Part shown: piece after piece, positions 2,371 through 36,629 of the stretch
Layout: every line of letters starts with the position of its first letter
Position numbering within the stretch: the stretch's first letter is position 1
Source of the DNA: Liolophura sinensis
Taxonomy: Eukaryota; Mollusca; Polyplacophora; Chitonida; Chitonidae
Length of the DNA stretch: 64,000 nucleotides
Assembly: GCF_032854445.1 (NCBI RefSeq)
Contig: NC_088307.1
Coordinates: 4,776,001 to 4,840,000, forward strand
Direction: 5' to 3'
The notes under the pieces: generated by a model
What the model was told of the DNA's origin: nothing
Seen by the model: only the letters and a program-made list of their open reading frames with translations
Databases searched by the model: none
Position numbers and translations under genes: made by a program

Positions 2371-2489
2371 GATTCCTGGAAGATCTGTGCATGCTCCTAT
2401 GGTACACTCACCATAGTATGGACGCAGCTTGAAATGTATCACTGTTACTTTGCCCGTCGATTCCTGGCAGATCTGTGCATGCGCCTATG

Positions 2490-5140
2490 GCACACTCACC
2501 AGGATATGGATGCAGCTGGAAATGTTTCACTGCTACTTTGCCCGTCCATTCCTGGCAGATCTGTGCATGCTAATATAGCACACTCACCAGGACATAGATG
2601 CAGCTGGAAATGGGTCACTGCCCGTCGATTCCTGGCAGATCTGTGCATGTGCCTATGGCACACCCACCAGGATATGAATGCAGCTGGAAATGTTTCACTG
2701 TTACTTTGCCCGTCGTTTCTTGGAAGATCTGTGCATGCTCCTATGACACAGTCACCAGGATATGGATGCAGCTGGAAATGTTTCACTGTTACTTTACCCG
2801 TCGATTCCTGGCAGATCTGTGCATGCTCCTATGGCACACTCACCAGGATATGGATGCAGCTGGAAATGTTTCACTGTTACTTTTCCCGTCGATTCCTGGC
2901 AGATCTGTGCATGCTCCTATGGCACACCCACCAGGACATAGATGCAGCTGGAAATGTTTCACTGTTACTTTGCCCATCGTTTCCTGGAAGATCTGTGCAT
3001 GCTCCTATGGCACACTCACCAGCATATGGATCCAGCTGGAAATGTTTCACTATTACTTTGCCCGTCGATTCCTGGCAGATCTGTGCATGCTCCTATGGCA
3101 CACTCATCAGGACATGGATGCAGCTGGAAATGTTTCACTACTACTTTGCCCGTCGATTCCTGGCAGATCTGTGCATGCTAATATAGCACACTCACCAGGA
3201 CATAGATGCAGCTTGGAATGTGTCACTGTCCGTCGATTCCTGGCAGATCTGTGCATGCTCCTATGGCACACTCACCAGGATATGGATGCTGCTGGAAATC
3301 TTTCACTGTTACTTTCACCAGGACATGGAAATGTTTCACTGTTACTTTTCCCGTCGATTTCTGGCAGATCTGTGCATGCTCCTATGGCACACCCACCAGG
3401 ACATTGGATGCAGCTGGAAATGTTTCACTGTTACTTTGCCCGTCGATTCCTGGCAGATCTGTGCATGCTCCTATGGCACACTCACCAGGATATGGATGCA
3501 GCTGGAAATGTTTAACTGTTACTTTGCGCAGATCTGTGCATGCTCCTATGGCACACTCAGCAGGACATAGATGCAGCTGGAAATGTGTCACTGTTACTTT
3601 GCCCGTCGATGCCCGTCTGTGCATGCGCCTATGGCACACTCACCAGGACATGGATGCTGCTGGAAATGTTTCACTGCTACTTTGCCCGTCGATTTCTGGC
3701 AGATCTGTGCCTGCGCCTATGGCACACCCACCAGGACATGGATGCAGCTGGAAATGTTTCACTGTTACTTTGCCCGTTGATTCCTGGCAGATCTGTGCAT
3801 GCTCCTATGGTACACTTACCAGGATATGGATGCAGCTGGAAATGTTTCACTGCTACTTTGCCCGTCCATTCCTGGCAGATCTGTGCATGCTAATATAGCA
3901 CACTCACCAGGACATAGATGCAGCTGGAAATGGGTCACTGCCCGTCGATTCCTGGCAGATCTGTGCATGTGCCTATGGCACACCCACCAGGATATGAATG
4001 CAGCTGGAAATGTTTCACTGTTACTTTGCCCGTCGTTTCTTGGAAGATCTGTGCATGCTCCTATGGCACAGTCACCAGGATATGGATGCAGCTGGAAATG
4101 TTTCACTGTTACTTTACCCGTCGATTCCTGGCAGATCTGTGCATGCTCCTATGGCACACTCACCAGGATATGGATGCAGCTGGAAATGTTTCACTGTTAC
4201 TTTTCCCGTCGATTCCTGGCAGATCTGTGCATGCTCCTATGGCACACCCACCAGGACATAGATGCAGCTGGAAATGTTTCACTGTTACTTTGCCCATCGT
4301 TTCCTGGAAGATCTGTGCATGCTCCTATGGCACACCCACCAGGACATAGATGCAGCTGGAAATGTTTCACTGTTACTTTGCCCGTCGATTCCTGGCAGAT
4401 CTGTGCATGCTCCTATGGCACATTCATCAGGACATGGATGCAGCTGGAAATGTTTCACTACTACTTTGCCCGTCGATTCCTGGCAGATCTGTGCATGCTA
4501 ATATAGCACACTCACCAGGACATAGATGCAGCTTGGAATGTGTCACTGTCCGTCGATTCCTGGCAGATCTGTGCATGCTCCTATGGCACACTCACCAGGA
4601 TATGGATGCTGCTGGAAATCTTTCACTGTTACTTTCACCAGGACATGGATGCAGCTGGAAATGTTTCACTGTTACTTTTCCCGTCGATTTCTGGCAGATC
4701 TGTGCATGCTCCTATGGCACACCCACCAGGACATTGGATGCAGCTGGAAATGTTTCACTGTTACTTTGCCCGTCGATTCCTGGCAGATCTGTGCATGCTC
4801 CTATGGCACACTCACCAGGATATGGATGCAGCTGGAAATGTTTAACTGTTACTTTGCGCAGATCTGTGCATGCTCCTATGGCACACTCAGCAGGACATAG
4901 ATGCAGCTGGAAATGTGTCACTGTTACTTTGCCCGTCGATGCCCGTCTGTGCATGCGCCTATGGCACACTCACCAGGACATGGATGCTGCTGGAAATGTT
5001 TCACTGCTACTTTGCCCGTCGATTTCTGGCAGATCTGTGCCTGCGCCTATGGCACACCCACCAGGACATGGATGCAGCTGGAAATGTTTCACTGTTACTT
5101 TGCCCGTCGATTCCTGGCAGATCTGTGCATGCTCCTATGG
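2490..5140 (+). repeat. Higher-order duplication within the satellite (two 1.32-kb copies)
   Basis: Sequence from about 2490 recurs at an offset of 1320 bp (15 x 88); for example 2521-2640 equals 3841-3960 base for base. After a 10-bp deletion in the first copy near 3330 the offset becomes 1330. The copies share odd monomers (80-bp variant, CTAATATAGCA variant, shortened monomer near 3530 and 4860), so this is one recent block duplication. Differences are a few single bases. Confidence 0.92.
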
Positions 5141-5355
5141 TACACTTACCAGGATATGGACGCAGCTGGAAATGTTTCACTGTTACTTTGCCCGTCGATT
5201 TCTGGCAGATCTGTGCATGCTCCTATGGTACACTCACCAGGATATGGACGCAGCTGGAAATGTTTCACTGTTACTTTACCCGTCGATTCCTGGCAGATCT
5301 GTGCATGCTCCTATGGCACACTCACCAGGATATGGATGCAGCTGGAAATGTTTCA

Positions 5356-15811: not shown

Positions 15812-16364
15812 TATTTATTTATTTCATTGGTGCCGTAAGATATTTTACTTACACGACGTCGGCCAGCATTATAGTGGGAGAAAACCGGCATAATCACGAT
15901 CATCCGCAAGTCGCTGGAAGACCTTCCCACGTCCACGTTACCGTGTAAGAAGCAATTGATACACACATGTACACAATACATGGTACTGGGCCGTGAAGCT
16001 ATATGTAGGTCAGATTATGTGCAATGTGCGTTTAATGAGCTAAACCAATGATCTCTGATAAATTGCACACAACATCACTGTATTTTGTTTATTTATTTAT
16101 TTGATTGGTGTTTTACGCCGTTCTCAAGAATATTTCACTTATACCACGGCGGCCAGCATTATGGTGGGTGGAAACCGGACAGAGCCCGGCGTAATCACGA
16201 TCATCCGCAAGTCGCTGGAAGACCTTCCCACGGCAGATGATACTTACATGTATAGAATACATGCTACTGCGCCGTTAAGCTATGTGTACGTCAGGTTATG
16301 TGCAATGTGCGTTTAATAAGCTAGTCCAATGACCTCTGACGAATTGCACGCAGTATCACTGCAT
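15812..16364 (-). repeat. Tandem segmental duplication, about 275 bp x2, each with a SINE-A part
   Basis: 15812-16086 and 16087-16364 share a reverse SINE-A part (15812-15936; 16087-16236) and the same non-SINE flank, including ATGTGCAATGTGCGTTTAAT (16018-16037; 16298-16317) and a CTCTGA...GAATTGCAC-type stretch. SINE and flank were therefore duplicated together. A third SINE-A follows at 16365. Confidence 0.85.
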
Positions 16365-19347: not shown

Positions 19348-19704
19348 ATGGAGACGTTGGTTTTTCGCGACAGGGCATCCTTTCACGTCGCCGATTACGT
19401 CATATTCGGACTGACAGTGGCCATCTCATCCGGCGTCGGGATTTACTTCGCCGTCGCTGGCGGACGTCAAAAGACGACGTCGGAATACCTGGTTGGAAAT
19501 CGGAAGCTACACGTCGTACCTGTGGGGTTGTCTTTGATTGTTTCGTTCGAGTCGTCCATCTTCATGCTGGGCTTCCCTGCAGAGGTCTACGGTCACGGGA
19601 CGCAGTTCTGGATGGTTCACGTTGGACTGATTCTTACCTTCCTGTGTGTAGCCCAAGTCATTGTCCCGCTTATGCACCCATTAGGGATAACCAGTGTTTA
19701 CCAG
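19348..19704 (+). CDS. Gene A exon 1 (residues 1-119)
   Basis: Begins METLVFRDR; covers TM1-TM3 with DYVIFG, GIYFAVAGG, PVGLSLIVSFESS and the end GITSVYQ. Ends phase 0 at CAG|gtaagg. The ATG was chosen because it gives the usual short N-terminal tail before TM1. Confidence 0.93.
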
Positions 19705-22700
19705 GTAAGGCGACACTTGCTTTAGACATTTTTACTTCATTTAATTAACCATTAAATCATTAAATTAATAAAGAGACTATATACGTGGAAAGGTTTGCAG
19801 CAACCTGCGGATGGTTGTGGGTTTCCATCGCGCTCTACCCGGTTTCATTACACCATAATTTTGACTGCCGTCGTATAAGTCAAATATTCTTGAGTTATAG
19901 GGCGTAGTGATGCAATCAAATAAATCAATAAATAATGCATAATTAAATAACTATATATACCGGTAGTGAACTGAACGTCATTATTTTGGCAATATTGATA
20001 ATCCGAACACAAGCACTCAAGAGCCTAACCCAGGAGACCAATCTAATCCTATTTCATTACTTTTCCATATTCTACATTCCACCCGATATTAAAATTGGTA
20101 GATTGACTGTACCATGTCGTAAGGCGACGATATCCTGACACAAAGGGAGGTCACTCTGTTGTCGGAACGTGCACATCGCGGCGTCATGACGTAACCATAT
20201 GACTGGACATAGATAACCAGTCTCTGATACATTGGGTTGACTTAGTTCTGAGATCAGCTTGCCACGTTCCGCGCTTAGCTTCCACACTAACCCCTCTAAA
20301 TCGTTACATTCACTAACCTTGAACTCAGTCCTGTCGCCGGCGCTGTGCTCAGCGCTAAAGCTTTACGAGACGATAACAAATTCTGAATGTATATCATCTC
20401 ATTATGCGAGAATAACAAAGGCCATAACCTCGCAATTAACACAAATGTGACGGGTTCATCCACTGCCTAAAGCATCCCATTTTCGCACACCGCCTTTTTC
20501 AAATCATGTGACGCTTACCAAAATTAAGATCATCTTTCTTTTTCACAATAGTTGCTTACATTTGCTTCTATTCATTTTTAAAACAAAAGCAAAGTTAAAG
20601 ACTCCCAAACAAGTTGTCAATCGCTTTCTTAATGGCCTACATGTAAATTTTGTTACTGTCAATCCAAACGTCCCACGAGGTTATCTCTTTCCGAAAGAGG
20701 TTGAGAATTGGAAACAGTTTTACCTTCTGTCGGCATACATTTGTGTTAGTTCTGTGTAATTAGCTTGCGCAGATCCTTTATACATGATATTTTCATGCCA
20801 CAAATTAGAAATTCCCTGGTATAGCCCCTTTCTAGTGTATTTTCAGTGATAAGTGTTAGCTAAGCATTATATTTTCAAATACGGTAAATGACATAAAAGC
20901 ACCTTTCCACGATCAATACAGCTCTTAGAATCCGACAAAAAGTACAACTTAGTCATGGATAAAATATAGGAGTATTACAGTTTGTAAGTATCAGCACGTT
21001 ACAATACTAATGAATCGTGGTGATGTCTCTCCAGGTATCTTGTCCATAGATAAAGTATATGATCTAACTAAAAAAATGTAATCATCGCAAGATTAAAATC
21101 AAACAAATTTCACAGTGCACGGAACTTGGTCTACACTACACACATGTGTAACGATTTCTCTTCTCTTTTTCCCCAGTACTTAGAACTGCGTTACAGGTCT
21201 CGGACGGTTCGCCTTCTAGCCTCTATCCTGGGAATTCTCTACCAGGTAGGCCTCAGTGATTACAGCTAAAAATAACTTTCAAATTAGCTTTTCACAGTCA
21301 ACTGGTTGACCTATTTCAATGGATGAAGTGCTTTACAGCATCTTTATGTATGCGCATCACGGGTCATGCGTGCAATTTGCCAGCGCTATATTATATTGAT
21401 GGTGTGGTAAAGCCTCACTTGAGCATTTGGCTCAAGGCCATTAACACCACGCAGTCGAAGAAGAAATGCGCTCAGATTGGGAAAGGGTGTTTGGCAGGAG
21501 GTACTAGTATATGAGCGTGTGAGAAGCTTTCGTAGTGTCTTGTTGGATTGAAGTCTTTCTGACTTTGGCGACTGTCCAGGATTTAGTTCACTTTTATAGT
21601 GTCGTTGTTGTGGGTGTATACCTTTTCCAAACTGGATATCAAAAACACAAAACACTTAATAAATTTATTATGACGCTTTTGTCTCCAAAACGAGCTTGTG
21701 AAGTTTAACTTTATGAGTAAGAAAATGTATTCTAACTGCATTTTTTTCTCAATTCTGTGAACGTCTAACCTGTGGAGTTGCATGTCGATGGCCAAAGGCA
21801 ATTTTGATAATAAGATTAAACTACTTAACACTCTTAGGTTTAAAATAAAACACAGTTTAAACAGCACGCAGTAGTCGAATCACTTCCAGTTACATTATAA
21901 CGGGCTATCGTGTAGTTCAGAGTTAATGCATGGTATTTGCTGTAACGCTTCTACCCCGGCCAATGTATTCAGTGCTTTAATAGATAAATCACTCGCATTG
22001 TAGACGTTTTACATGGGAATAGTGCTTTATGGCCCCGCCACAGCACTGGAGGCAGGTACGTTACCTATAACCGAATCATCCTACTTATATATAGTATAAA
22101 CTTTGAAAACAATTGATCAGTATACTTTACGTTAGCACAAACACTTTAAAAACAAACCTAAAACTCGTCAAAATTTATAACTCTATCCTTACACGGTTCT
22201 ACATTTTCTCTATTTCTTCCAGGTGTAGTTTAACTGCATAAGATATACTGAATTAGGGAAATGATTTTGTCTACTGTTTGGGAAAACGTAATACAGGTAA
22301 ATGTATATCTGTAGATTTTGATGAATATCTTTACATTACTGGAATGCATGATAGCTGAAACATTTATTGCTCAAATGGTTAGCGTGCTAGCGCAGAGTAA
22401 TGACCCAGTAGCCTCTCACCAATGTGGTCGCTGTGAGCTCATGCTGGCGTCCTCTCCGGCCGTAAGTGGGAAGGTCTGCCAACAACCTGCGGATGGTCGT
22501 GAGTTTCCCCTAGGCTCTCCCCGGTTTCCTTCCACCATAATGCTGGCCGCCTCCATATAAGTGAAATATTCTTGAGTACGGCGTAAAACACCAATCAGAT
22601 AATCAGGACACCAATCTGTCCTCCGTGTTATAACTTTTGCGATGTCTCTTTTCTTCGTCCTAGTTACGCAGTTTCCGGTTACCTACTCCATTTTCCTGGT

Positions 22701-25700
22701 TGCTGCGGCCTCCGTATTTTACACGTCTCTGGTAAGTGACAAGCTAACGGTAGCTATGACATGAACCAGCAAGAATATTCTGGTATCCTTTGTTGGCCCA
22801 CACCTAAGTTTTTATGGAGACATCAATTCGTTTCAGGTCATCTGGCACGTTTACACATTTACATGGTTGCAAGCAATCAATGAGCCTATGGCGTTACTAT
22901 ATAACTGTGGTAAATGTCAAATTTGTTGACTATGTTGGTCATTATAAAAACAAGGATACCCCTGTTCTCTGCCCGCTTTCCTCCAATCACAATGTTGACC
23001 ACATTCGAGTAAATGAACTAGTACGGCGTAAAACATACTATCATAGTTTTATATAAAATCCTCTTAACTTCGGGCTAAGGACGGTATAATCATTTATGTA
23101 CATGTACATTACATCAGCCTTATTTTTCTGACCTGGAGGTTATTCACGAACTAGGAGTTTTATGTCTCCTTTAGATGTCATATCTAAAATATTGACTGCC
23201 TTCTTTTGTTCACTGAAAACTGTTGGCGGCTTCATTTTTTACATGTTACCAGCTTTTTTCAACTGTTTATGTTATAATTTTTAACATTCTTTTGGGAACT
23301 AGTGTTTTACGTTCGTTTTAATCGGATTACGCCATTATCAACTTGGAGTGCCCCTGTACTGTTAACAAGTGCTAAACAAATTTCGAACAAGACGCTTAGA
23401 TTGCATGCATCAAATATGTTTCAAAAACACGAATCTTTGTGTTCAAGTCATATTTTTCACCGTGCATAAATACTCAGCTTTCTTTTCTGTCTAGTTGTTA
23501 TCATCTTTATCTACAGGTGATAGTTCTCCCACAGGATGCTAGTTTGAGGTTTTAGCTCACCTGATCACGAGCAGTTTAAACTCTTTGTAATTGTCCAAAA
23601 ATAAATGAAGTATTATATTATTTCAAATGTTTTATGTTCTCTTCTGCCCACTTCTTTCCATTCTGTATGTTTACGCGTACTTGATCAACTGTACTCTCGA
23701 GAAAATAATCTGTTTAATCTAACAGGAAGTCTGTTATCTGAGTGATTCTGGAATGTACTCTGTTATTGCAGCAGATTATGCTGTTAAATATAACGGACAT
23801 ATTCTGTTAATACAACATTTATTTATTTATTTGATTGGTGTTTTACGCCGTACTCAAGAATATTTCACTTATACGAAGGCGGCCAGAATTATGGTGGGTG
23901 AAAACCGTGCAGAGCCCGGGGGAAAACCACTACCATCCGCAGGTTGTTGACAAACCTTCCCTTTTATGGCCGGAGAGGAAGCCAGCATGAGCTGGACTTG
24001 AACTCACAGCGACCGCATTGGTGAGAGGCTCCTGGGTCATTGCTCTGCGCTAGCGCGCTAACCAACTGAGCCACGGAGGCCCCATTAATACAACATAACC
24101 ATTCTATTAGATTAACGGAATGTTATGTTTAGTATGACACTATATGGTGTTATAATAACAGAATACATTATAGCATCACTCAGACAACAGGCTTTCTGTT
24201 AAAATTATCAGATTATTCATGTGTCTTAAATCCTGCTATAGGGCGGCATTAAGGCAGTGGTTTGGACTGACGCTCTGCAGTTTCTCGTCATGCTCGGTGG
24301 ACTCATGGCTCTTATCATTGTGGTGAGTCTGTCAGCAAAAACAAACGTCTGACGTCTTCCAGTGTCACGTCATCCTCAGTGGGATCGTGGTTCTTATCAT
24401 TGTGGTGAGTCTATCAGCAAAAACAAACGTCTGGCGTCTTGCAGTGTCACGTCATGCTTGGTGGGATCATGGCTCTTATCATTATGGTGAGTCTATCAGC
24501 AAAAACAAACGTCTGACGTCTTCCAGTGTCACGTCATCCTCAGTGGGATCGTGGCTCTTATTATTGTGGTTAGTCTAACAGCAAAAACAAACGTCTGGCG
24601 TCTTGCAGTGTCACGTCATGCTTGGTGGGATCGTGGCTCTTATTACTGTGGTGAGTCTATCGCAGAAACAAGCGTCTGACGCCCTTGCAGTTTTATGTCA
24701 TGCTTGGTGGAATCATGGCTCTTATCATTGTGGTGATTCTATCAGCAAAAACAAACGTCTGACGTCTTGCAGATTCACATCATCGCTCTTATCATTGTCG
24801 TGAGTCTATCATCAAACTATCTTGTAATATATGATAAGTACGTTGTCAGTAGAAAAACATAAATGAACAAAGGACTACGCAGCTTTAATGTGTTTCTCGT
24901 GATACAAAAATTCTTTATTATCAACCAGAACCCTCTTAAATATGAAGCATGACACATTTATATGCCTTTCCAACGATCTTCTTGTTCAGGGCTGCATTTA
25001 CGTCGGAGGATTTGACAAGATGTGGCAGCTCAATGTAGACGGGGGCAGGGTGAAATTCTTTGAGTAAGACATTATTACTTTTTCTCACAGAAAACGTCAA
25101 ATATGAATTACTGAATTATTTACCTAATTTTGCTTGGCTTTCTTATCCTGAAGTTCTAACAAGGTGGTGAAGATAACATTGAACTTTGATGAGTTTTTAT
25201 GAAGTTAATCATTGGTTCCGCCAAACGAATCATATTGTTTCTCGTTTCCTACTTTCTTCTTTGAAATCTCCCAGTGCAATTATCTGGTGCAGCTGCGTGA
25301 CAAATGTGTAACAATGGTTAATTTCCTTTCTTCCAGTCACTAAAACGTAAATCTCCACGAACGCAGATAAGAGCAATGATAAAATGAGACTTCATGCTAA
25401 GTCTCGCCAGTTTATTGACCTAAATGTTAGCTGTTTTCTCGGGTGTTTTTCTTTTCTTTCTACGTTCTACGTCTATTCTGTCTTTCCTTAATTTTCAGCT
25501 TTAACCCGAGCCCCTTGATTCGGACCTCATTCTGGACACTGGTAATTGGGAACACGATTCGAAGCATCGAAATGGGATTTAATCAGTCCACAATACAGAG
25601 GGTCGTATCCGTAAAATCACAGAAAAGCGCCAAAATGTAGGTATATGTCTTTAAATTAAACTCTTGGCGCAGTTTCCTCGTCTTAATGCTCAAAGAAAGA

Positions 25701-28700
25701 GCAAATCACAGCAGACATCGACGCAAGGCGACTGTTAAAAGAACATTCAAATATTCCAAATAAGGTCAGTGGATTGAAAACTAAACCTAGAACATTACTG
25801 TTTAGTACAGAAACCCAACATAGAATTTAATCATTTTAACTGATTTTGATTTTAGGGCTTCAATGTACAGTTTTAAAACAGTATATAATTAAAGGCGTAC
25901 AGCACAGAGAGTAAAAGAAGAGCCCAGTTCACAAAGATGTCACATAAGTATGATATAATCGCACATATAGTACATTGGTACGGTAATAATGAAGTGCAAA
26001 ATTTCATACGAAAAATGTACGATAAAAAGTGTACGTCGCTTTGTGAAACTGGGCCCTCTGCAGCGACGACAATGTGACAACTGGCAAAAGGTCACACGTA
26101 ACCTGTGAAGTACGGCCTCTTGTCAATTTACATCAGTTAGGGTTTTATTCTAACTGTTCATGTAAATTCTTAAATAGCGGCAAATTACATGTCCCCTAAC
26201 AGCTATTTATTTGGGCAGAAAATATACACGTATATTGACGTCATCTGTATAAATATTTTAATCGTTTTCAGTATCGTACTATGCCTGTACCCTGGCTTTC
26301 TGCTTTTTGGAACTCTGGCCTGTTTGGAAGGAATGATCTCCTATGCATATTTCGCCTACACGGAATGTGACCCTTACGGGGCAGGGCTGATCAGTAACAC
26401 GAATCAGGTGACATGGTTTAATTTTGCGAAAGCTTTGTGACTCCAAATGGTTAAAGTTGGTTTAAAATCAAATCCTTCCCGAAAGTCCGATGCTTCAAGC
26501 CGACGTGCTTTATGCGAAATGTAATCAAGTGTATCAAGATGAGGGAAGCTTTCGGATTGGCACTATCTTTGTTTTGTCGATAAGCCTTAATACTGTTGAA
26601 CTATATGGATGACGGAGTGTATGTATGCGCATGCGCGCGTGTGTGTGCGTACATTCTCCACAACAATTCGCCCGACCATTAGCAGATATGCCAGGTACAT
26701 TGCCTAGTAAACACACTAAAGCAGTGTCCAGTTTAATGATTACATGGCACTGATTCCAGACAATATCAGATATCACAATTTCCAGACACAACTGGATGAG
26801 TGTTTTAATAAAACGGAAACATAAACGAGGCTTTAGTACACGCTTGTCATTTAACTTACTGTGAGTAGGAGTCTGAAGACCGTAATTGTTTTGTCTCGTT
26901 TAAGGTACTCCCGTATGTTGTGACCGACCTCTTCCAGACGTTACCGGGGTTGTCCGGGCTCTTTCTGGCATCTCTGTTTAGCGCTTGTTTAAGGTAAATA
27001 AGGTACATTATCACTTCATATCCAGGCTGTAACTAGTGACATCCGGCCACTTGTCGGTTTGCCGGTTAAGGTTTTATTCTAACAGTTCATGTAAATGCCC
27101 AAAATTTACACAGCCCCTAGCTCTGTGGCTTCAGCAGAATTGGAATTTTAAAAAGTGCAAAGGTTTTAATTGCAGTTTATTAGACCCCGCATTAAATCTC
27201 ACATTTCTGGGCTACTGACTTTTCTCGGAGATATTCCTTATTTAATATTGACTTAGAAATCACGAAAGTTCGGATAGATTTACCATTAATTAGCACTGAG
27301 CAAATGACGAAGGTCTCCGGTTAAGCAACAATGTGTAGGCCTACAGCCTAAAAATAAACTTCATCGTTACCACTATTCATCGTTACCTGCATTCACCGTT
27401 ACCTACATTCACCGTTACCTGTGTTCATGAATAACAACACAAGAGGCACAAAATGCAAACATGTCAAAGGTTCAGGGATTGATTACACAAAATCAGTTTG
27501 GACATAAGTCAAAAACATGAAATTTGATTTACGTGTAGGAATTTAAATTGTGAACACTTAACAAAAGCAGTGTGAACACAAATGTGTGAAAATGTGAACA
27601 TCCCAGTACAATATAAATGCAGTACATTTACATTTTTAACACCAACCCTCAACTCATGTTAAATATCAACAGAAAAAAGGATTATTATCTTTCACTTGGT
27701 GGTATTTGTGCCGTTCAACAATTTTTGTAATTGAGTAACTGATCAAACACATTATCGTGTAACTAAGTAACTCATCAGAGTATAGTGTAACTGAGTAACT
27801 GATCAAGCAGGGTATCGTGTAACTGAGTAACTGATCAAACCGAGTATAAACAAGTCGGCGCCACCATGTTGAGCACACACACACAAATTAGCCATGAAGT
27901 TCTTTCCCTCGGAATAATGTCGTATACCCTGTCTTCACTCGCGATTCTATTTCTAATTGTACTTATCACGTTCCAGAGAGCGCTGTATAAGTTGTGTGTC
28001 GACACCCAAACTAGTGATGTAAAGCACTCTGCCTTCACATTTGATGAGAGACCACATCTAATTTACAACTTTACAATAATGTTTTTTCCAATCTTTGCAG
28101 GACCCAATTTCTCAACAAAAAGATGGTAAAATTTGTTGCTACGGACATTATAAGCACTTAGCGTTCGTTTGAAATCCTGCTGATGTGACCTCTATTTTTG
28201 TGTTAAGTCACAGATGTTCTTGTCCAATCGAACGATTCCACTTAAATGGAACTTCATTTCCAGCACATTGTCTTCGTCTCTGAGTAGTATATCGGCCATG
28301 GTCTGGACAGACTTCCTCCAGCCTTTCATGAAAAACGCTTCTGAATTGAGAGCAACAATTGCTGCCAAGATCGTCGGTGAGTTCAAAGAAGATATGAAAA
28401 ATTGTGGGGAAACTTTTCACAAAACTTCGTAAATTTGCCTTTTATAAAAGACGTTATCCAAGTTGTGGCGACTAAAGGCTGTGTGATTTACAAGAAAAGT
28501 TTAGAAAAACTGATTTACGAAGTTTTGTGAAGGTAGCCCAGTACTTTATTCTGGCTCAATACGGTAAGCAGTACTCATACATCCTTTTAATTGCCTTTTA
28601 AACTCGAAAAACCCGTGAAGTGTGTATCACTTAGGCTAATGTTATTTGTTTCGTAAAATCATTTTTAATCATTTAAAAAACAGATAGCATCGTTTGAATT

Positions 28701-31700
28701 ACCAAATAATTATCTGTTCTAGTTTTTTTTTTTTGAGTTCTCATAAAACTAGCTGGGTTAAATGTTTACATTTACAGCGGGATAATTCTAATAACTATTT
28801 GGTATTTCCATACTGAAGTTCTGTTTATGGCGCTCAAGGGCCGAGATACATTTACTACCGCTGTATATACATTTGCTAATAAAAGAATTATATATATTCA
28901 GTCAACTTCAGGATGATTATTACTATTGACTTTTTCCCACCTTATATCATAAAAAATATATTAAAATTTAACTCTTTGTTGCAGTTATTGTGTTTGGAGT
29001 ATTGTCTATTGGCATTGCCTTCCTAATTAAATCTATTGGTGGACCATTACAACAGGTATGTTCTCACTGGTGTTATTATGTTTGCATATATTGTCGTCGC
29101 CTTCCTGACAAAGTCTTCTGATGGACAATTACAAAAGGTATTTCCTCACTGATGTTATTGTGTTTACACATATTGACGTCGCCTTCCTAATTAAATCTGT
29201 TGATGGACCATTACAAAAGGTATATCCTCATTGGTGTTGTTATGTTTGCATATACAGACGTCGCCTTCCTGATGAAATATGTTGATGAACAGTTACAACA
29301 GGTGGGCTCTCATTGATGTTGTTATGTTTGCACATATTGACGTCGCCTTCCTGATTAAATCTATTGATGTAACATTTATATCTTCATTTATTTTATGGCG
29401 TTTGCATATACACATGTATTAGTATAGCCTTCCTGACAATGACCACTGGTGGACCATTGCAACAGTTCGGTTGTGTGTTATGGTGTTTACATATATGGGC
29501 ATCGCCTTTCAGATAATGTTCATCGCTGAACTATTGTATGAGGGGGACACTTATTTGGGTTCTAGGGTTACACGTACAGGCATTGCTTAATTATTCTGAT
29601 CATTTAATACCTACATATAAATATATATACATATATATTGACATATAAAGACAACCTAATGTGAGTATCGCCATCTGATTGATTATGGAAAAATCTAACT
29701 GAAACGACATCACTAACCTTTTAGACTATACTCTTGTACCTTAAATTAAAACAAAATTAAAACGAAGAATGTACCGGTAGAAAGAATATCAAAACTAGTA
29801 TCTGAAACTACTTTTACTTGTTTACAATTTTTTTCACTGAATTAAAAGCAGTGCAATGATATATCCCCAGTGGCGTCACATATATTTTCCCCTGGCCTCA
29901 ACATTATCATTTTTACGTACACAAACACACATAATATGAGTAAAAGTTAACGCCACATCTGAATTTTATATCTTTCCTTTCCAGTAAACCAAGGGTTGCT
30001 GCTATGAAAAACGCCATTTTAGGCGAAGAATAATGCGCACCTTGCAATTGAAATAGGTCTATGAGAAAAATTGAGTATATTTTCATAGTTCCAGGAGATC
30101 TGTCAGACAGTGTGCTTCAGCTTGAGCTTTTAGCTTTGTTTTCATCTTTGGTTAGTCGTTTTTGATCAGGTAGTGTGAAGAGGGGAAATAACTCCGATTG
30201 ACATCCCTCGTCTGTTTTCAGGTCTCCTACAGCATCCTCGGCTCTATCTCAGGACCTCTGACTGGTTTGTTTTTAGCTGGTTGTATTTTTCCCTTCACCA
30301 ACTCTGTGGTAAGAAACCTAGCATCTTCATATGCCTGCATGTCTTATTTTCGTAAAAAACCGTTTTCGTAATTTATGCTCTACGCTCTTAAATGAGGAAT
30401 CTTTCCCGCCTTAAGCAAGTCAGGCTTTAGCGGTGTAGTCTACAGCTCATTCCCGTCTATATGATGACGTTTTGCGGGGACAAACTGGTCACGTTGTACT
30501 CATTCATGACAAGAGTAAAATGGTCTATTCAACTTCGACCCGACCCATTTGTAAAGTGTCCAGTAAAGGTGTCCATTTTTGTCTGCTGTTTTAGCCTAAT
30601 CAGATTAAATGATTTGTAACTCTTCGAAAAGAACCGTTTTCAGTAGGCCAACAGGTGTGTCCATCCCTTCCTTTGCTTATCTTTTCAATTCCACCGTGAC
30701 GTGATGATGTCTTCTGTGCCTTCGTGGAAAGTCGAATGCAAAGTATCATTCTTAAGAAGAGTTCCAGTCATGGCAAAATAGAACGAATAATAACCATCTA
30801 TGCCTGACAAATATTCCCCATAACTGTGAACTGGAAGAACATAAATTAGGTATGAATCCCTACAAAAACTTTTGAGCATCTCGCTGGCTCAGATAATTAA
30901 ACCGTTGGCTCGCTCTTCGCAAGAGAGGTCCCTGATTCGAATCCATCTCTCGCTGTTTCAAGAAGTATGTCAGGTACCTTTATACCTGGACTAGCTCTTT
31001 ATTTAACAACTTCAGACTGAAGACATAAATTGTAAGTGCTTAAAAAGTCAAATTCAGACCACGAAAAAACTCAAACTGTAGTTGGTACATTGTTCTGCGG
31101 TAAAGAATCAGTGTACAAATTTTAAATTTTCTACAGCGAAACATTTTAATTATAGCTTTGACTGAACTTCAGATTTAAACCTTGAGACGTTTGATAAATA
31201 TACGCTTTGACAAATGTCGATGGTTTGATCAGGGCACTCCGGTATGATCAGGGCACTCCGATTTGATCAGGGCATTCCTGTTTGATCAGGGCAGTCCTGT
31301 TTGATCAGGATCTTCCAGTGAATCAGCGTAGAGCCACTCTGTATTTTATTTTGCATTGCATAACAACATTTTTTAAGAAAGTTTATCCCGCTCCTAGGGT
31401 GCGATCAGCGGAACTGTGTTCTCGTTTGGGGTCAGCATGTGGTTGTCCCTGGGGTCCAGTTTTTCCCCGTACACCAAGAAGACCCCTTACCTACCTCCGG
31501 CCCCCATAAACAACTGCTACGTGAATGCTACTCTAAATCAAACTGTTTTCACCACACCTGTTCCATCTTTAAACGACACTTCTGACACGTAAGTATTGTA
31601 TGCTAATCACTAAGCCATTGAGGCCCCCAGCCTAATATGTAAAAATGACGCCATGAAATGCATGTACAACTGTCTTAACTTACAATCCCCTCGTGCAAGA

Positions 31701-34700
31701 GTGTGTCGAAACGTGATTTACACTGTTTTTTTTAGATTATTCCGCATATAAAAAATGAAAGCCGAAATATTGCTGGACGCTTGCAACCTTTAATCTAAGA
31801 CGTACAGCATATAGGGTAAACCCAGAGCAGCGACGACTGTGTGATAGACGTACAGCATATAGGGTAAACCCAGAGCAGCGACGACAGTGTGATAGACGTA
31901 CAGCATATAGTGTAAACCCAGAGCAGCGACGACAGTGTGATAGACGTACAGCATATAGGGTGAACCCAGAGCAGCGACGACAGTGTGATGGACGTACAGC
32001 ATATAGGGTAAACCCAGAGCAGCGACGACAGTGTGATAGACGTACAACATATAGGGTAAACCCAGAGCAGCGACGACAGTGTGATAGACGTACAGCATAT
32101 AGGGTGAACCCAGAGCAGCGACGACAGTGTGATGGACGTACAGCATATAGGGTAAACCCAGAGCAGCGACGACAGTGTGATAGACGTACAACATATAGGG
32201 TAAACCCAGAGCAGCGACGACAGTGTGATAGACGTACAGCATATAGGGTAAACCCAGAGCAGCGACGACTGTGTGATAGACGTACAGCATATAGGGTAAA
32301 CCCAGAGCAGCGACGACTGTGTGATAGACGTACAGCATATAGGGTGAACCCACAGCAGAGACGACTGTGTGATAGACGTACAGCATATAGGGTAAACCCA
32401 GAGCGGAGACGACAGTGTGATAGACGTACAGCATATAGGGTAAACCCAGAGCAGCGACGATTGTGTGATAGACGTACAGCATATGGGGTAAACCCAGAGC
32501 AGCGACGACTGTGTGATAGACGTACAGCATATAGGGTAAACCCAGAGCAGCGACGACTGTGTGATAGACGTACAACATATAGGGTAAACCCAGAGCAGCG
32601 ACGACTGTGTGATAGACGTACAGCATATAGTGTAAACCCAGAGCAGCGACGAGTATGTGATAGACGTACAACATATAGGGTAAACCCAGAGCAGCGACGA
32701 CTGTGTGATAGACATACAGCATATAGGGTGAACCCAGAGCAGCGACGACAGTGTGATAGACGTACAGCATATAGGGTAAACCCAGAACAGCGACGACTGT
32801 GTGATAGCTCGCAAATGGTCACACGTAACCGGTGAAATACAGCCTCTTGTCACTTTCCCTCAGTTAGGGTTTCATTCTAACTGTTCATGTTAATGCATAA
32901 ATAGTAGCAAATGACACGCCCCTTAGCGCCATGGTTAAAGCAAAATTAGGTAACAAAATGTAGTAATGTTAATTGCACTTTGTCAGACATTACTGGTCTT
33001 GAAGTGCCCAAAATGCTGTGTTGTCATCACATTTAATGTATACAATATTAAAAAAACGAAAACCACAAAAACCAAAATCTACCCAATTAAATCATGTAGC
33101 CGATAAAATGGGTCAAACTAAAATATACGTTGCGAACCATCAACCTACTGTATACCGCTAAAGGCATAGGATTCTATCCTTTTCCGTCTAGTTTTAGTAT
33201 TTGAAACAAGTTTTATCCTCCGAATTGTACTGTAAATATATATAACAGCGTCTTTAGTAAACATTATTACGAAGCTAAACTGATAAACAGGTGTCCCTCT
33301 TTTCAATCTAACTTTACGATATCCTGTTAGTTGAAGTGACTAGCTTTGAGCTTTCATTGGAAGAATACTGATAATATACGAAGAAATGACTTCTTGTGTT
33401 GGTCAAATTAATCCCCCTCTCCATTATCTTATTTGTTAAGCACTGAAAAGCCTGCAGTTATAGGAATCGAGCTCGATATCGTATTCAACACTACTGTTTC
33501 AAGGCACGCATGTTACCACTGGGCCAATGCTTACAATGGCACAGAAGCCATGAAATATAATGGTGAATGTAGAGTACCTCTGAGCTTCCAAATTATTTTA
33601 TTTTTTTCCGATTTATAAAAATATGATTGCATGAACCAACAGGATACTTCGTTACTTAACTAGACACCAAATATGTGGAAATAAGTTTTGTTTACGTTAT
33701 CATATGTTTATTATAAAGGGAATTCCCGCAGGAAAACGCCCTAAAATAGCAAAATCTGCTTTTGACCCTACTTTTGTCATTTGATAAAATAAAAACGTGA
33801 TGTATCTGTATGCCCTATGTTTCGCTGTTGGTTTATTAATAAATCTCACACGATTTTAGACTGGATCCGGGCTTTTGATGACAGATTGTTCGAGCCATCG
33901 TTTAACCCATAAATCTTTTAATTCCGTATTGTTTTCTTGACAAATCAGTCAGTATTCCTATATCTAATGTCCTGTATATTTTTTTTTACTTTCAGCTCTG
34001 GACTGACGGCTATCTATTCCATATCCTACCATTATTTCGGCCCTATCGGCATGATTACCTGTGTACTAGTTGCCATCGTGACCAGTACAATCACAGGTGA
34101 AATGCTAAACGTTATAATGTGTTACAAACACCATTGTCGCAATAATCACTTCACTAAAACAAGTACTTTCAAATTTTACTTTTCAGGAGAAGAAATGTTA
34201 AATGTTGAACTTAGTTGTAGTATTCAGAAAAACGCAATCCCTCTGCTTTCACCGCATTATTTACTTTTTATCAGAAAAGCGTTGATGGTAACCTTATCGC
34301 TGACGTTGCGTGATTTGATATAAACTCTAATGTTCCAATGGTCCAGACAAGTATAAAAAATGGCGTTTCTACATTAGCAACAGTAGTAACAATACAGATT
34401 TAAATTATCTTTACATACGTCTGTGATGAAATGAACTTTTTATTATTATCATGCAGCACACTGTTTATCTTCATGGTATAATTCCTTTACAGATTTATAG
34501 TTTCTGAAAATTTACAATATTTCGCTATTTTCATTATACTTGTGTAATCAGTTATATTTTTATTCTCCCATTTACATCCGAGAAGGTACAAGTCCCTCTG
34601 ACTTCAGTCCTGCCACTATAAATTTTTCACCGTTTACATGTACATGTATATAGCTACCAAGAGATGAACACTTCTTTTTCTTAAATAAACGTAAAAATAA

Positions 34701-35450: not shown

Positions 35451-36001
35451 TTTGATTGGTGTTTTATGCCGTACACAAGAAACTGATTGGTACTAAAGAC
35501 ATTGAAACGACGGACCTGATCGATACTAAGAATATTGAAATCTCGAAACTGATTGGTATTAAGGATACTGACAGGACGAAACTGATTGGTACTAAGGGTA
35601 TTGAAAGGAATATTCTGATTGGTACAAAGGGTATAAAAAAGGACGATTCTGATTAGCTCTAAGGGTATATAAACGATTAATCTGATTGGTACTAAGACTT
35701 GACGTCTACAACCAAGGAGAGATCGGCGGAATAGGTGTCAAACCCATATGTAGTTGACGACCTAGAACACCAATCAAGTAAATAAATACATGTAGTTAGT
35801 CTGAATTATGTTAGATTACAGACGTACCCAGTAAATATAATTGTAATAATTTAATTTAGTGAAGCGGACAATCTTTATCGTGAGAATCATATCATTTTAT
35901 GAAAGTGTTTTCTCCTTTCCCCAAGGTCAAGGTCATCTCGTCGTGACTCGGGGAACCAACCGGAAGAAGAGTCAATATCCTTAAAGGATACCGTTTCTTA
36001 A
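19348..36001 (+). CDS. SLC5A8-like: Gene A: SLC5-family sodium-coupled monocarboxylate/vitamin-type transporter, complete, 16 exons
   Basis: Joined exons: 19348-19704, 21177-21245, 22004-22055, 22664-22731, 24242-24322, 24990-25063, 25499-25636, 26272-26407, 26905-26993, 28264-28376, 28985-29055, 30222-30308, 31398-31588, 33996-34096, 34879-34996, 35926-36001. They total 1821 bases (606 codons plus stop), all with GT-AG introns and matching phases; human SLC5A8 is of similar length. Family features: N-terminal TM1 region, GG.DKMWQLN near 215-224, FWTLVIGNT and FNQSTIQRVVS in the middle, CDPYGAGLI, then SSSLSSISAM...DFLQP in the TM8 region that carries the second sodium site in this family. 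Three N-glycosylation sequons (N488, N492, N504) lie in the large late loop. The protein should be a roughly 13-helix plasma-membrane symporter using the sodium gradient to import small carboxylates or related solutes; SLC5A8, SLC5A12 and SLC5A6 relatives cannot be separated by eye. Two introns contain exon-derived arrays. Confidence 0.93.
19784..19925 (+). mobile_element. SINE-A 3' part in intron 1 of gene A
   Basis: Core CCTGCGGATGGTTGTGGGTT, CCGTCGTATAAGTCAAATAT and a damaged tail ending CAATCAAATAAATCAATAA. The remainder of intron 1 (19926-21176) shows nothing recognisable. Confidence 0.8.
21177..21245 (+). CDS. Gene A exon 2 (residues 120-142)
   Basis: Encodes YLELRYRSRTVRLLAS plus ILGILYQ, the conserved YLELR loop and next helix of SLC5 proteins. 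Acceptor TTTTTCCCCAG; donor CAG|gtaggc; phase 0 on both sides. Confidence 0.93.
22004..22055 (+). CDS. Gene A exon 3 (residues 143-160)
   Basis: Encodes TFYMGIVLYGPATALEA, the TM4 segment matching the family Y.GIVLYAPA-type motif. 52 bases, starts phase 0, ends phase 1 at GCAG|gtacgt. Confidence 0.92.
22372..22605 (+). mobile_element. SINE-A in intron 3 of gene A
   Basis: Head GGTTAGCGTGCTAGCGCAGA, middle AATGTGGTCGCTGTGAG, core GCGGATGGTCGTGAGTTTCC, tail TTGAGTACGGCGTAAAACACC. It begins about 10 bases into the family head. Confidence 0.9.
22664..22731 (+). CDS. Gene A exon 4 (residues 160-182)
   Basis: Encodes VTQFPVTYSIFLVAA plus ASVFYTSL. Phase 1 in, phase 0 out (CTG|gtaagt). Same length as the gene B counterpart at 61410-61477. 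Confidence 0.92.
22965..23035 (+). mobile_element. Decayed SINE-A tail
   Basis: GCTTTCCTCCAATCACAATG and GTACGGCGTAAAACATA recall the SINE-A 3' end; strongly diverged. Confidence 0.4.
23692..24225. mobile_element. MITE family 1 copy, interrupted by a SINE-A
   Basis: Outer inverted ends: GAAAATAATCTGTTTAATCT...AACAGGAAGTCTGTT on the left and CTTTCTGTTAAAATTATCAG at the right, matching those at 34702-34813 and 46024-46265. The internal part resembles 46090-46220 (TAACAGAATACATTATAGCA, GATTCTATTAGATTAAC type). The SINE splits it. Confidence 0.75.
23819..24084 (-). mobile_element. SINE-A, full length, nested in MITE
   Basis: Complete on the minus strand: head GGGGCCTCCGTGGCTCAGTT (A box), B box GAGTTCAAGTCC, core and (TTTA) tail. 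Flanked by TTAATACAACAT at 23807-23818 and 24085-24096, a perfect 12-bp target-site duplication. Good reference copy: 266 bp. Confidence 0.95.
24242..24322 (+). CDS. Gene A exon 5 (residues 183-209)
   Basis: Encodes GGIKAVVWTDALQFLV plus MLGGLMALIIV, the GG.KAV.WTD.LQ motif and TM5. Phase 0 on both sides, donor GTG|gtgagt. Its last 54 bases are the founder unit of the 82-bp array that follows. Confidence 0.93.
24269..24815 (+). repeat. 82-bp tandem array made from the 3' end of exon 5 and its splice donor
   Basis: Units start at 24269 (within exon 5), 24351, 24433, 24515, 24597, 24678 and 24761 (last one partial); lengths 82, 82, 82, 82, 81, 83. Each repeats the last 54 exon bases plus 28 intron bases including the gtgagt donor. 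In copies 2-6 an internal CTTCCAG or CTTGCAG precedes a 42-base segment that is open, in exon phase and ends at a donor (gtgagt in 2, 3 and 5; gttagt in 4; gtgatt in 6); copy 7 has a 27-base version. Copies alternate in type (2 and 4 alike; 3 and 5 alike), showing a 164-bp dimer step. Confidence 0.93.
24990..25063 (+). CDS. Gene A exon 6 (residues 210-234)
   Basis: Encodes GCIYVGGFDKMWQLN then VDGGRVKFFE/D, the GG.D..W.....GGR..FF motif of SLC5A6/8/12 relatives. Phase 0 in, phase 2 out (GA|gtaaga). Confidence 0.94.
25499..25636 (+). CDS. Gene A exon 7 (residues 234-280)
   Basis: Encodes FNPSPLIRTSFWTLVIG and FNQSTIQRVVS, highly typical of the family. The donor AT|gtaggt (phase 2) was chosen by comparison with gene B, which ends at the same place. 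Confidence 0.92.
25887..26210 (+). repeat. Repeat D copy in intron 7 of gene A, interrupted by a MITE
   Basis: Head GCGTACAGCACAGAGAGTAA, then a foldback insertion, then GCAGCGACGACAATGTGACA, AAAGGTCACACGTAACCTGT, GGCCTCTTGTCAATTTACAT and ATTCTAACTGTTCATGTAAA. One of the longest D copies here. Confidence 0.8.
25922..26056. mobile_element. Short foldback MITE inside repeat D
   Basis: Ends GCCCAGTTCACAAAGATGTC and the inverse of GTCGCTTTGTGAAACTGGGC, about 22-bp imperfect terminal inverted repeats around a 135-bp element. It separates the D head from the GCAGCGACGAC block. Confidence 0.75.
26272..26407 (+). CDS. Gene A exon 8 (residues 280-325)
   Basis: Encodes CLYPGFLLFGTLACLEGM then the CDPYGAGLISNTNQ motif before the next helix. 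Phase 2 in, phase 0 out. Confidence 0.94.
26905..26993 (+). CDS. Gene A exon 9 (residues 326-355)
   Basis: Encodes VLPYVVTDLFQTLPGLSG and LFLASLFSACL, matching the family LPGLPGLF-type motif. Ends phase 2 at AAG|gtaaat. Confidence 0.93.
27028..27170 (+). repeat. Repeat D fragment in intron 9
   Basis: AACTAGTGACATCC, GGTTTTATTCTAACAGTTCA and TGTAAATGCCCAAAATTTAC followed by an AATTGCA-type end; head missing. Confidence 0.6.
27360..27426 (+). repeat. Short minisatellite (about 18 bp x4)
   Basis: Repeated CATTCACCGTTACCTAC-type units in intron 9 of gene A. Confidence 0.7.
27727..27846 (+). repeat. About 32-bp minisatellite, 4 copies
   Basis: GTGTAACTGAGTAACTGATC repeats with GAGTAACTGATCA cores at 27733, 27765, 27793 and 27825. 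Intron 9 of gene A. Confidence 0.85.
28264..28376 (+). CDS. Gene A exon 10 (residues 355-393)
   Basis: Encodes STLSSSLSSISAMVWTDFLQ, the Ser-rich TM8 segment that contributes to the second sodium site in SLC5 transporters, then MKNASELRATIAAKIV. Ends phase 1 at GTCG|gtgagt. Confidence 0.94.
28416..28536. mobile_element. Foldback element in intron 10
   Basis: TTTTCACAAAACTTCGTAAA at the left is mirrored by TTTACGAAGTTTTGTGAAGG at the right, about 20-bp terminal inverted repeats around a 120-bp element 40 bases after exon 10. Short MITE-like; superfamily unknown. Confidence 0.75.
28985..29055 (+). CDS. Gene A exon 11 (residues 393-416)
   Basis: Encodes VIVFGVLSIGIAFLI then KSIGGPLQQ. Phase 1 in, phase 0 out (CAG|gtatgt). 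Its last 48 bases found the second exon-derived array. Confidence 0.93.
29008..29571 (+). repeat. 82-bp tandem array made from the 3' end of exon 11 and its splice donor
   Basis: Units start at 29008 (inside exon 11), 29090, 29172, 29254, 29336, 29418 and 29495, five of the six steps exactly 82 bp and the last 77. Each repeats the last 48 bases of exon 11 plus about 34 bases of intron. The exon frame stays open in all copies except that copy 5 loses its 3' half; donors gt-a/g survive in copies 2-4 and are lost in 5-7. Copies 5-7 are the most diverged. Confidence 0.9.
29258..29301 (+). CDS. Candidate alternative exon 11 of gene A
   Basis: Array copy 4 has an acceptor TTGCATATACAG, a 44-base open segment and a donor CAG|gtgggc. 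Spliced after exon 10 (phase 1) it reads D then VAFLMKYVDEQLQQ and ends phase 0, compatible with exon 12. It would replace the 24 residues of exon 11 with 15, shortening the helix, so it may be non-functional. Inferred only from splice signals and frame. Confidence 0.3.
30222..30308 (+). CDS. Gene A exon 12 (residues 417-445)
   Basis: Encodes VSYSILGSISGPLTGLFL then AGCIFPFTNSV, the conserved G..GPL.G.F..G...P.N motif. Phase 0 on both sides. Confidence 0.94.
30445..30540 (+). repeat. Low-copy dispersed motif
   Basis: GATGACGTTTTGCGGGGACA plus AACTGGTCACGTTGTACTCA resembles 38610-38660 and 39278-39325. No family was recognised. Confidence 0.45.
30885..31015 (+). mobile_element. SINE-C copy in intron 12
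   Basis: A-box-like TCGCTGGCTCAGATAATTAA, B-box-like TGATTCGAATCC, and a tail with GTCAGGTACCTTTATACCTG. tRNA-like but no cloverleaf; SINE preferred over a tRNA gene. Confidence 0.6.
31227..31316 (+). repeat. 19-bp minisatellite, 4.7 copies
   Basis: GATCAGGGCACTCCGATTT-type units in intron 12 of gene A, ending about 80 bases before the exon 13 acceptor. Confidence 0.9.
31398..31588 (+). CDS. Gene A exon 13 (residues 446-509)
   Basis: Encodes FSFGVSMWLSLGSSFSPY and a proline-rich external loop with sequons NAT (488), NQT (492) and NDT (504). Phase 0 in, phase 2 out (GACAC|gtaagt). Confidence 0.93.
31799..32808 (+). repeat. 48-bp minisatellite, 21 copies
   Basis: Head-to-tail units of GACGTACAGCATATAGGGTA, AACCCAGAGCAGCGACGAC and TGTGTGATA. 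The unit equals the first 48 bases of repeat D, whose remaining body follows directly (32809-33030). 48 is a multiple of 3, so long open frames with 16-residue periods appear on both strands; they are not evidence of a gene. Located in intron 13 of gene A. Confidence 0.96.
32809..33030 (+). repeat. Repeat D body following the minisatellite
   Basis: CGCAAATGGTCACACGTAAC, GGTGAAATACAGCCTCTTGT, AACTGTTCATGTTAATGCAT and the distal ATGCTGTGTTGTCATCACAT, in the order seen in other D copies. The rest of intron 13 (33031-33995) shows nothing recognisable. Confidence 0.8.
33996..34096 (+). CDS. Gene A exon 14 (residues 509-543)
   Basis: Encodes SGLTAIYSISYHYFGPIG then the last helix ending TSTITG. 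Phase 2 in, phase 1 out (ACAG|gtgaaa). Confidence 0.93.
34702..34813. mobile_element. MITE family 1, compact 112-bp copy
   Basis: TACACTCAAAAAATTAATCT is mirrored by AGATTAAATTTTTGAGTGTA, and inner GTTAATTTTAACAGAAAGTC by GACTTTGTGTTAAAATTAGC, giving terminal inverted repeats of about 45 bp that would form one long hairpin. It ends 65 bases before the exon 15 acceptor. Confidence 0.9.
34879..34996 (+). CDS. Gene A exon 15 (residues 543-582)
   Basis: Encodes the start of the cytoplasmic tail, GGCRTSLQVDPRYITPVWD then a Cys/Arg-rich stretch. Aligned with 47693-47826 of gene B (DVDPKYISPLWD). Donor GCCAG|gtaacg, phase 2. Confidence 0.88.
35285..35695 (+). repeat. 33-bp minisatellite, interrupted by a (TTTA)n SINE-A tail
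   Basis: About 10 units of GACGAAACTGATTGGTACTA plus AGGGTATTGAAAC in intron 15 of gene A. The unit length is a multiple of 3 and produces an open frame with a repeated KLIGTKGI pattern, which is not supported as a gene. Confidence 0.9.
35375..35480 (-). mobile_element. Severely truncated SINE-A with long (TTTA)n tail
   Basis: About 19 TTTA repeats, then TTGATTGGTGTTTTATGCCG and a stop after GTACACAAG. Only the last 30 bases of the family remain; the minisatellite core GAAAC(T/C)GATTGG lies on both sides, as expected for insertion into it. Confidence 0.8.
35926..36001 (+). CDS. Gene A exon 16, last coding exon (residues 582-606 and stop)
   Basis: Encodes RSRSSRRDSGNQPEEESIS then LKDTVS and TAA. 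Acceptor TTTCCCCAAG, phase 2 in. The basic then acidic hydrophilic tail fits a cytoplasmic C terminus; it does not end in a clear class I PDZ ligand. Confidence 0.88.
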
Positions 36002-36160
36002 TTCAGAGCATTGACAGGCTACGTGAAAATCCGTGGTTATGTTAGTCCAGCTTTTTGTTGTTTGTCACCGTTTTACATTTTTTATGATTGATGAATTTCC
36101 AGTATTTGGTAAATTTATTCATTGTTTGTGAACCGAACCATAATGGAAAGGAAGAAGAAG

Positions 36161-36166
36161 AATAAA
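36161..36166 (+). terminator. Poly(A) signal of gene A
   Basis: AATAAA 160 bases after the stop codon, following a GAAGAAGAAG stretch. It is conserved in the inverted copy at 40903-40908. Confidence 0.7.
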
Positions 36167-36629
36167 ATTTCCTTGACTTATCAGGTTGAGTTGTGTTTTG
36201 CAAAGTAACCACCGTCTTACAAACGTTTAAAAAACATATCTCCCAACATACTCCAAATACACGTCAGCTTCAGTAGTAAGACTGTTGAAAACTATATCCA
36301 AACCTACCTGTATTTATTGATTTTATTTTAGATTAAAACGAAATGAAGTGAAGTATTTGAGTTCTACGCTGGGATTTTTAAATTAATTTATAACCTGATT
36401 GTCATTTTCATCCAAAAGATATTCATCCAAGGATGAAAACGATACTACTAAAGCTCATTTTCACGTCACTGGCAACATTATCCATCTTGTCCTGAAAGCA
36501 CACTATAGAAGTCAAGCAATTAACTGCATTTCAGCCAGCCAAAAATATTGTCTAAAATAGTTTTGCGTGTAGTTTTCAGCGGTGTTTCCAGTAACGATTA
36601 TCTATGTCTTTATGTATCCTTTTGCTTTA

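Follow-up and report, generated by a model that had tools for sequence, protein, structure and literature searches.

When a tandem repeat copies the end of an exon together with its splice donor, do the copies become exons, or are they carried silently in the intron? The question is posed by a transporter gene, here called gene A, in a 64,000-nucleotide stretch of the Liolophura sinensis genome (the window; contig NC_088307.1, positions 4,776,001–4,840,000), at whose exon 5 a preliminary description had noticed seven 82-bp units offering up to six in-frame candidate micro-exons. In our reading this repeat, array 1, is very probably a neutral minisatellite that straddles the exon–intron boundary and is spliced out with intron 5 behind its first donor.

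The host gene and the array at exon 5

Gene A lies on the plus strand and was modelled as 14 exons (19348–34096, the model covering up to exon 14), with GT/AG at all junctions and an unbroken phase. Its predicted product carries an SSF domain (Pfam PF00474, E 1.1e-40) and resembles solved SLC5 transporters, the best match among solved relatives being sodium-coupled monocarboxylate transporter 1 (SMCT1, 7sl9; E 1.2e-106), and on these two grounds the gene can be assigned to the SLC5 (sodium:solute symporter) family as an SMCT1-like transporter. Exon 5 is in phase 0 at both ends, and its donor has the identical position in the homologous exon of paralogues B, C8-1, C8-2, C2a, C2b and C2c. The expected partner of this donor, at 24322, is the acceptor of exon 6; the exon 5–6 junction aligns to SMCT1 7sl9 without gaps, and the boundaries that these two exons share lie, in paralogues B, C8-1 and C8-2, at the homologous positions, bear GT and AG and bring the same codons together.

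Table 1. Features of gene A and of the SGLT-like gene, with the sources of the calls; positions are those of the window unless another contig is named.
Feature	Position	Strand	Remarks
Exon 5 of gene A, GGIKAVVWTDALQFLVMLGGLMALIIV	24242..24322	+	Gene model; last 54 bases are copy 1 of array 1; donor gtgagt
Tandem array 1, period 82, 7 copies (last shortened)	24267..24815	+	Tandem Repeats Finder and direct reading; copies 2–7 within intron 5
Copy 2, exon-like part, CHVILSGIVVLIIV	24363..24404 (42 nt)	+	Donor gtgagt; 40 nt from exon 5 donor
Copy 3, exon-like part, CHVMLGGIMALIIM	24445..24486 (42 nt)	+	Donor gtgagt
Copy 4, exon-like part, CHVILSGIVALIIV	24527..24568 (42 nt)	+	Donor gttagt
Copy 5, exon-like part, CHVMLGGIVALITV	24609..24650 (42 nt)	+	Donor gtgagt
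Copy 6, exon-like part, FYVMLGGIMALIIV	24691..24732 (42 nt)	+	Donor gtgatt, weak (4.65); acceptor weak (3.5)
Copy 7, shortened exon-like part, IHIIALIIV	24773..24799 (27 nt)	+	Donor gtgagt
Exon 6 of gene A	24990..25063	+	Gene model; acceptor score 10.8
Exon 11 of gene A	28985..29055	+	Gene model; its end is copy 1 of array 2
Array 2, period 82, copying exon 11 end and donor (gtatgt)	29017..29560	+	7 copies by eye
Two clear donor-straddling arrays of the SGLT-like gene (68 bp, 129 bp)	3484-3867, 7304-8552 of C13:20903001-20914500		

The seven 82-bp units were recovered by Tandem Repeats Finder (24267–24788, period 82, 6.4 copies, 85% match, score 744) together with direct reading, which also bore out the make-up first described for unit 1, namely the 54 terminal bases of exon 5 followed by 28 intron bases. 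Donors 1–6 are spaced by 82 bases, GT is in register in 7/7 units (full donors in Table 1), and no stop codon occurs in the exon-like parts. Likewise, the 42 open, in-phase bases followed by a donor in copies 2–6, and the 27 bases in copy 7, were found as claimed; of the start positions originally proposed all agreed except that of copy 6, which begins at 24691 and not at 24690. A change of CTGCAG to CTTCCAG or CTTGCAG had also been described, and it is present, but in register it is TCTGCAG that has become CTTGCAG or CTTCCAG, by substitution. Cys-His opens 4/5 of the 42-nt copies, where the real exon 5 has Phe-Leu and 5/6 paralogues have Phe-Ile.

Copies 2 and 4, and likewise copies 3 and 5, form pairs of 94% identity each (64 columns); growth of the array may thus in part have gone in steps of 164 bp, and the sequence CTGACG at each end of the first unit (24267–24272 and 24349–24354) would be compatible with an origin by slippage or microhomology. 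A mobile origin of the unit was considered and set aside: searches of the 609-Mb genome, in which the best candidates only were scored, listed six matches to copy 1 of array 1, all in array 1, and three to the second array of the gene (array 2, below), all in array 2, with no match listed elsewhere. Tandem repeats are error-prone, and the copy number of array 1 itself could be wrong; that the array as a whole is an assembly artefact, a mis-joined or inflated repeat, nonetheless seems extremely unlikely, as copies 1–6 differ by 6–28% over the first 64 columns, and so are not one sequence re-assembled, and like arrays are present at several loci.

Strength and spacing of the candidate splice sites

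Splice sites were scored with position matrices built on 76 distinct donors and 90 distinct acceptors, all from related genes in this genome. Donors 1–7 of array 1 scored 9.31, 9.31, 8.75, 6.31, 9.31, 4.65 and 5.33, against a real-donor median of 8.1, and the acceptors of copies 2–7 scored 7.66, 8.1, 7.66, 8.1, 3.52 and 5.17, against a real-acceptor median of 10.5. The acceptors of copies 2–5 (7.7–8.1) stand at the 21st percentile of real acceptors, and those of the array at the 86th to 97th percentile among all AGs scored across gene A; inside exon 5 itself, CTCTGCAG has an acceptor score of 6.35. In strength, the candidate sites are like weak to middling real sites, believable but ordinary. 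Each of copies 2–7 combines an acceptor, an open in-phase body and a donor, as a cassette exon does, the acceptors and donors of copies 6 and 7 being weak. Branch-like matches to CTRAY lie just 11–12 nt from the exon-like start in copies 2, 4, 6 and 7, a search for one in copy 3 gave none of its own, and copy 5 has a branch-like CTAAC whose A is 31 nt upstream of the exon-like start.

Neighbouring copies are, as originally stated, 40 nt apart, roughly a quarter of the shortest intron (155 nt; median 955 nt) among 70 measured in related genes. Ultra-short introns of 43 and 49 nt have been described in humans (PMC8363638), so an intron of 40 nt would not be strictly impossible.

Together these measurements bear on a reading in which single copies, copy 5 being the likeliest, enter the mRNA as 42-nt cassettes and lengthen a membrane segment by 14 residues; gaps of 40 nt would bar neighbours from being joined and make adjacent copies mutually exclusive. 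Copy 5 is the best candidate for such use: its acceptor (8.1) and donor (9.31) beat several real gene A sites (exon 3 acceptor, −1.1; exon 6 donor, 4.7), it has the branch-like site described above, its flanking introns would be 286 and 339 nt long, and it is in frame and open. We nevertheless consider cassette use unlikely, given that the copies put His into a hydrophobic stretch, that exons 5 and 6 of three paralogues meet at the same codons, that no constraint is seen on the exon-like parts and that the array which an SGLT-like gene carries at its homologous exon does not keep the frame (the last two points are taken up below). A copy might still be used at a low level.

Variation among the copies

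Use as exons would hold the exon-like parts of the copies tighter than the intron-like parts, and the reverse was observed. Among copies 2–6, diversity came to 0.163 over the 54 exon-derived bases against 0.072 over the 28 intron bases, and when labels were permuted the difference was no larger in 973/1000 cases, the opposite of constraint; the real exon 5 differed from the copies by 0.211 in the exon part and 0.072 in the intron part. Changes counted by parsimony at codon positions 1/2/3 numbered 6/4/7 in copies 1–6 and 4/3/6 in copies 2–6, while by region (copies 1–6) there were 17 changes per 42 exon-like sites, 9 per 12 acceptor-side sites and 6 per 27 intron sites, making the acceptor side the most changed part of the unit. 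Coding constraint on the array 1 copies was thus not found by diversity or by codon position, and the micro-exon reading is not supported by this comparison. The lack of stop codons is uninformative, because 17 random changes would leave five copies stop-free with a probability of 0.87. The proposal of candidate micro-exons in the preliminary description accordingly survives in so far as the copies are in frame, open and bounded by plausible sites, but not as regards their usability, which is called into question by the missing constraint, by open frames that are to be expected and by the 40-nt gaps.

In four other arrays, described below, exon and intron diversities were 0.187/0.220, 0.134/0.117, 0.027/0.050 and 0.111/0.098, none of which differs beyond permutation. 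The exon part was slightly less diverse than the intron part in 2/5 arrays, the one at gene A exon 11 (permutation P 0.34) and the 68-bp one (P 0.48). Diversity tests took 6/7, 4/7, 12/13, 5/6 and 9/10 copies of the five arrays, the rest being too decayed, shortened or at an array end. Because each copy was trimmed to a fixed length, indels escape this comparison, and its count of frame shifts was set aside.

Arrays at other donors

A further array in gene A, at exon 11, went unmentioned in the preliminary description. Tandem Repeats Finder called array 2 at 29017–29376, with decayed copies beyond; its donors are kept in copies 1–4 and lost in copies 5–7. The typical unit is without an acceptor AG, and acceptor-like AGs occur before 29258 (copy 4, score 4.7) and before 29513 (copy 7, score 6.7). 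Arrays 1 and 2 agree in unit length and, as judged by eye, in copy number, their sequences being unrelated.

An array over the exon 5 donor was looked for in paralogues B (exon 5 at 60971–61051, minus strand), C8-1, C2a, C2b and C2c and was absent from all of them. Paralogue B does, as had been stated, lack the array, but outside the window paralogue C8-2 (contig C8, 57204001–57244000, reverse strand) carries a different array at this exon. This array, at reverse-strand positions 29098–29810, has 13 in-register donors with a period of 57 and two 51-base steps; 13/13 donors keep GTAA, and 801 nt are open in frame, read from the exon 5 start. One way to read the unit is as 51 bases of exon followed by gtaagc. 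Exon 3 of C8-2, counted on the sequence, is one base short (51 bases instead of 52), which may be a frameshift or an assembly error, and for that reason C8-2 may be a pseudogene. Two more repeats were seen in the same gene: a 24-bp tandem duplication in exon 1 and, as a mirror case at exon 10, a 33-bp acceptor-like array upstream of the acceptor that it resembles (reverse strand ~35960–36280, 36586). The near-identical C2 paralogues L010 and L014 have 40/80-bp intron arrays 23 and 57 nt past the exon 5 donor.

The C8-2 array is pertinent to another reading, that array 1 is a series of alternative 5′ splice sites extending exon 5, as in the human IFI6 minisatellite. A GT donor is present in all seven units of array 1, donor arrays recur in the gene family, and the 57-bp unit of C8-2 sets its 13 donors in one open frame. 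An open frame after a downstream donor, while it holds in C8-2 (57 bp, 801 nt), fails in gene A, where nine codons past the first donor are followed by TGA at the tenth (24323–24352); as 82 is, moreover, not a multiple of 3, extension would truncate the gene A protein. With C8-2 itself possibly a pseudogene, through its exon 3, we think it very improbable that array 1 works in this way.

In the SGLT-like gene (C13:20903001-20914500), a 68-bp array of 5.7 copies lies at the homologous membrane exon (...YTDTLQTLIMLGGSFVLMYFG), and its exon-like parts, being 43 nt long, would shift the frame; the in-frame state of the gene A copies may therefore be a one-in-three accident. A different exon end of the same gene carries a 129-bp array of 9.7 copies, of which copies 4 and 6 have one inserted base, and a third exon end shows a weak 141-bp case (23/30 matches). 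A further gene (C13:9463001–9480000, reverse complement, 15942–16146) carries CAG-gtaagc donors in a 16-bp array at one of its exon ends. No common frame rule was apparent among arrays of like build at other donors. A short 16-bp array in another gene (locus L025, 8786–8830) falls below the threshold of 23/30 used in the next section; the 16-bp arrays consist largely of donor motifs in series (CAG-gtaagc and gtgagt) and begin at the exon end or next to it.

Three SLC5-type genes thus have an array at the homologous exon, with units of 82 bp in gene A, 57 bp in C8-2 and 68 bp in the SGLT-like gene. Shared ancestry of these arrays was thought unlikely, as unit length and intron sequence differ and paralogues B and C8-1 are without arrays.

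Two other parts of the window were inspected by eye, both on the minus strand. At 2370–5355 there is an 88-bp array of ~26 copies in whose units 16 nt separate an acceptor-like ttccag from a donor-like gtgagt; splice-like pairs thus occur also in a repeat where no exon or gene was recognised. At ~60–1800 there are open frames with zinc-knuckle-like and endonuclease-like stretches, perhaps from a non-LTR retrotransposon.

How often repeats straddle splice sites

A site was counted as straddled when the 30 bases centred on it recurred within 1.5 kb at ≥23/30 matches. The sample, drawn from one gene superfamily with the sites of seven genes called by matrix, comprised 167 donors and 150 acceptors, reduced to 149 and 135 when the near-duplicate genes C2c and C11b were dropped. 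Straddling was found at 7/149 donors (6/148 without the index case) and 1/135 acceptors, compared with 80/600 random positions. Three of the seven straddled donors are in the one SGLT-like gene and two in gene A, and the sole straddled acceptor is that of C8-2 exon 10, with the 33-bp array upstream. In 8/8 straddling sites the best second copy was on the intron side. For the 16-bp case, the matrix apparently picked the second donor of the array.

A donor-specific hotspot is not claimed on these figures, donors and acceptors not differing significantly (two-sided Fisher P 0.069, index case included). Two further observations count against one: donors are less often in repeats than random positions are (P 0.002), and in the first gene set a non-straddling array lay within 120 nt on the intron side at 9 donors and 10 acceptors. 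With Tandem Repeats Finder alone, 3/107 donors and 0/96 acceptors of that set were straddled (P 0.25). Repeats are dense in the loci sampled, and those that overlap exons seem to survive when the extra copies fall in the intron.

Discussion

The account that we favour for array 1, a boundary-straddling minisatellite without function, would begin with successive tandem duplications in which the last part of exon 5 was copied along with its donor. If the original upstream donor at 24322 is still used and joins 24990, as we infer, the extra copies would be removed with intron 5, the mRNA would be unchanged and the array would be neutral. By chance the duplicated coding segment TGACGCTCTGCAG (TDALQ of exon 5) contains an acceptor-like CTGAC...CAG; this, together with the donor carried along in each duplication, would make the copies resemble micro-exons, which drift with no visible coding constraint. 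The original donor stays nearest the exon's acceptor, and its continued use would explain the presence of the arrays, their direction, their drift and their mixed frames. Counting against neutrality are the GT retained by 7/7 donors of array 1, its five 42-nt parts in frame, the donors and open frame of C8-2, and the slightly lower exon diversity of two arrays, which is within permutation. That the donors persist could reflect use, and low divergence accounts for it as well.

Several known systems invite comparison. Tandem mutually exclusive exons, such as those of Dscam1, are whole exons that replace one another; array 1 is like them in having exon-like copies next to one another, at a spacing that is perhaps too tight for joining neighbours, and unlike them in that its partial exons would add to exon 5 instead of being swapped with it. 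In the IFI6 minisatellite, whose unit is reportedly 12 bp, downstream repeat units are said to act as donors in mRNA. Array 1 shares with it the position at an exon end and a splice donor in each unit (GT in 7/7), but its unit is 82 bp and also has an acceptor-like site, and read-through in gene A hits a stop. Three mRNA species are described for IFI6 (PMC4526556). In potato, a tandem duplication across an exon–intron boundary made a new intron, with RNA reads in support (PMC4974935; duplication-made introns are reviewed in PMC3443670). There, too, a boundary-crossing duplication copied splice signals, as the 54 exon and 28 intron bases of the array 1 unit do, but it was a single duplication on the acceptor side and its new intron is used, whereas array 1 has seven copies on the donor side and candidate sites only. 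In the polyubiquitin gene UBC, a tandem array of dual-specific splice sites allows splicing among repeated sites (PMC10809524); its units resemble those of array 1 in each having sites able to vary unit number in mRNA, and differ in being coding units bounded by two-way AGGT sites, where array 1 has separate acceptor-like and donor-like sites 42 nt apart within an intron. The kind of arrangement is thus already known from IFI6, potato and UBC, array 1 providing the same raw material with a candidate use only.

The freshest part of these results is the recurrence of arrays at one homologous exon in three genes, which may be chance. It is conceivable, as a long shot, that arrays of exon end plus donor arose repeatedly at this membrane-segment exon of three SLC5-type genes and are used stochastically, with copy number tuning the isoforms; if true, the products would include 14-residue cassettes in gene A and, through the alternative donors of C8-2, multiples of 19 residues.

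On the neutral reading of array 1, a repeat born at a splice donor would supply exon candidates that are already assembled and that initially cost nothing, since the other copies stay hidden behind the first donor. Straddled donors are not rare in the sampled genes (7/149, index case included), and the conversion of hidden copies into real exons or introns should for that reason be directly testable.
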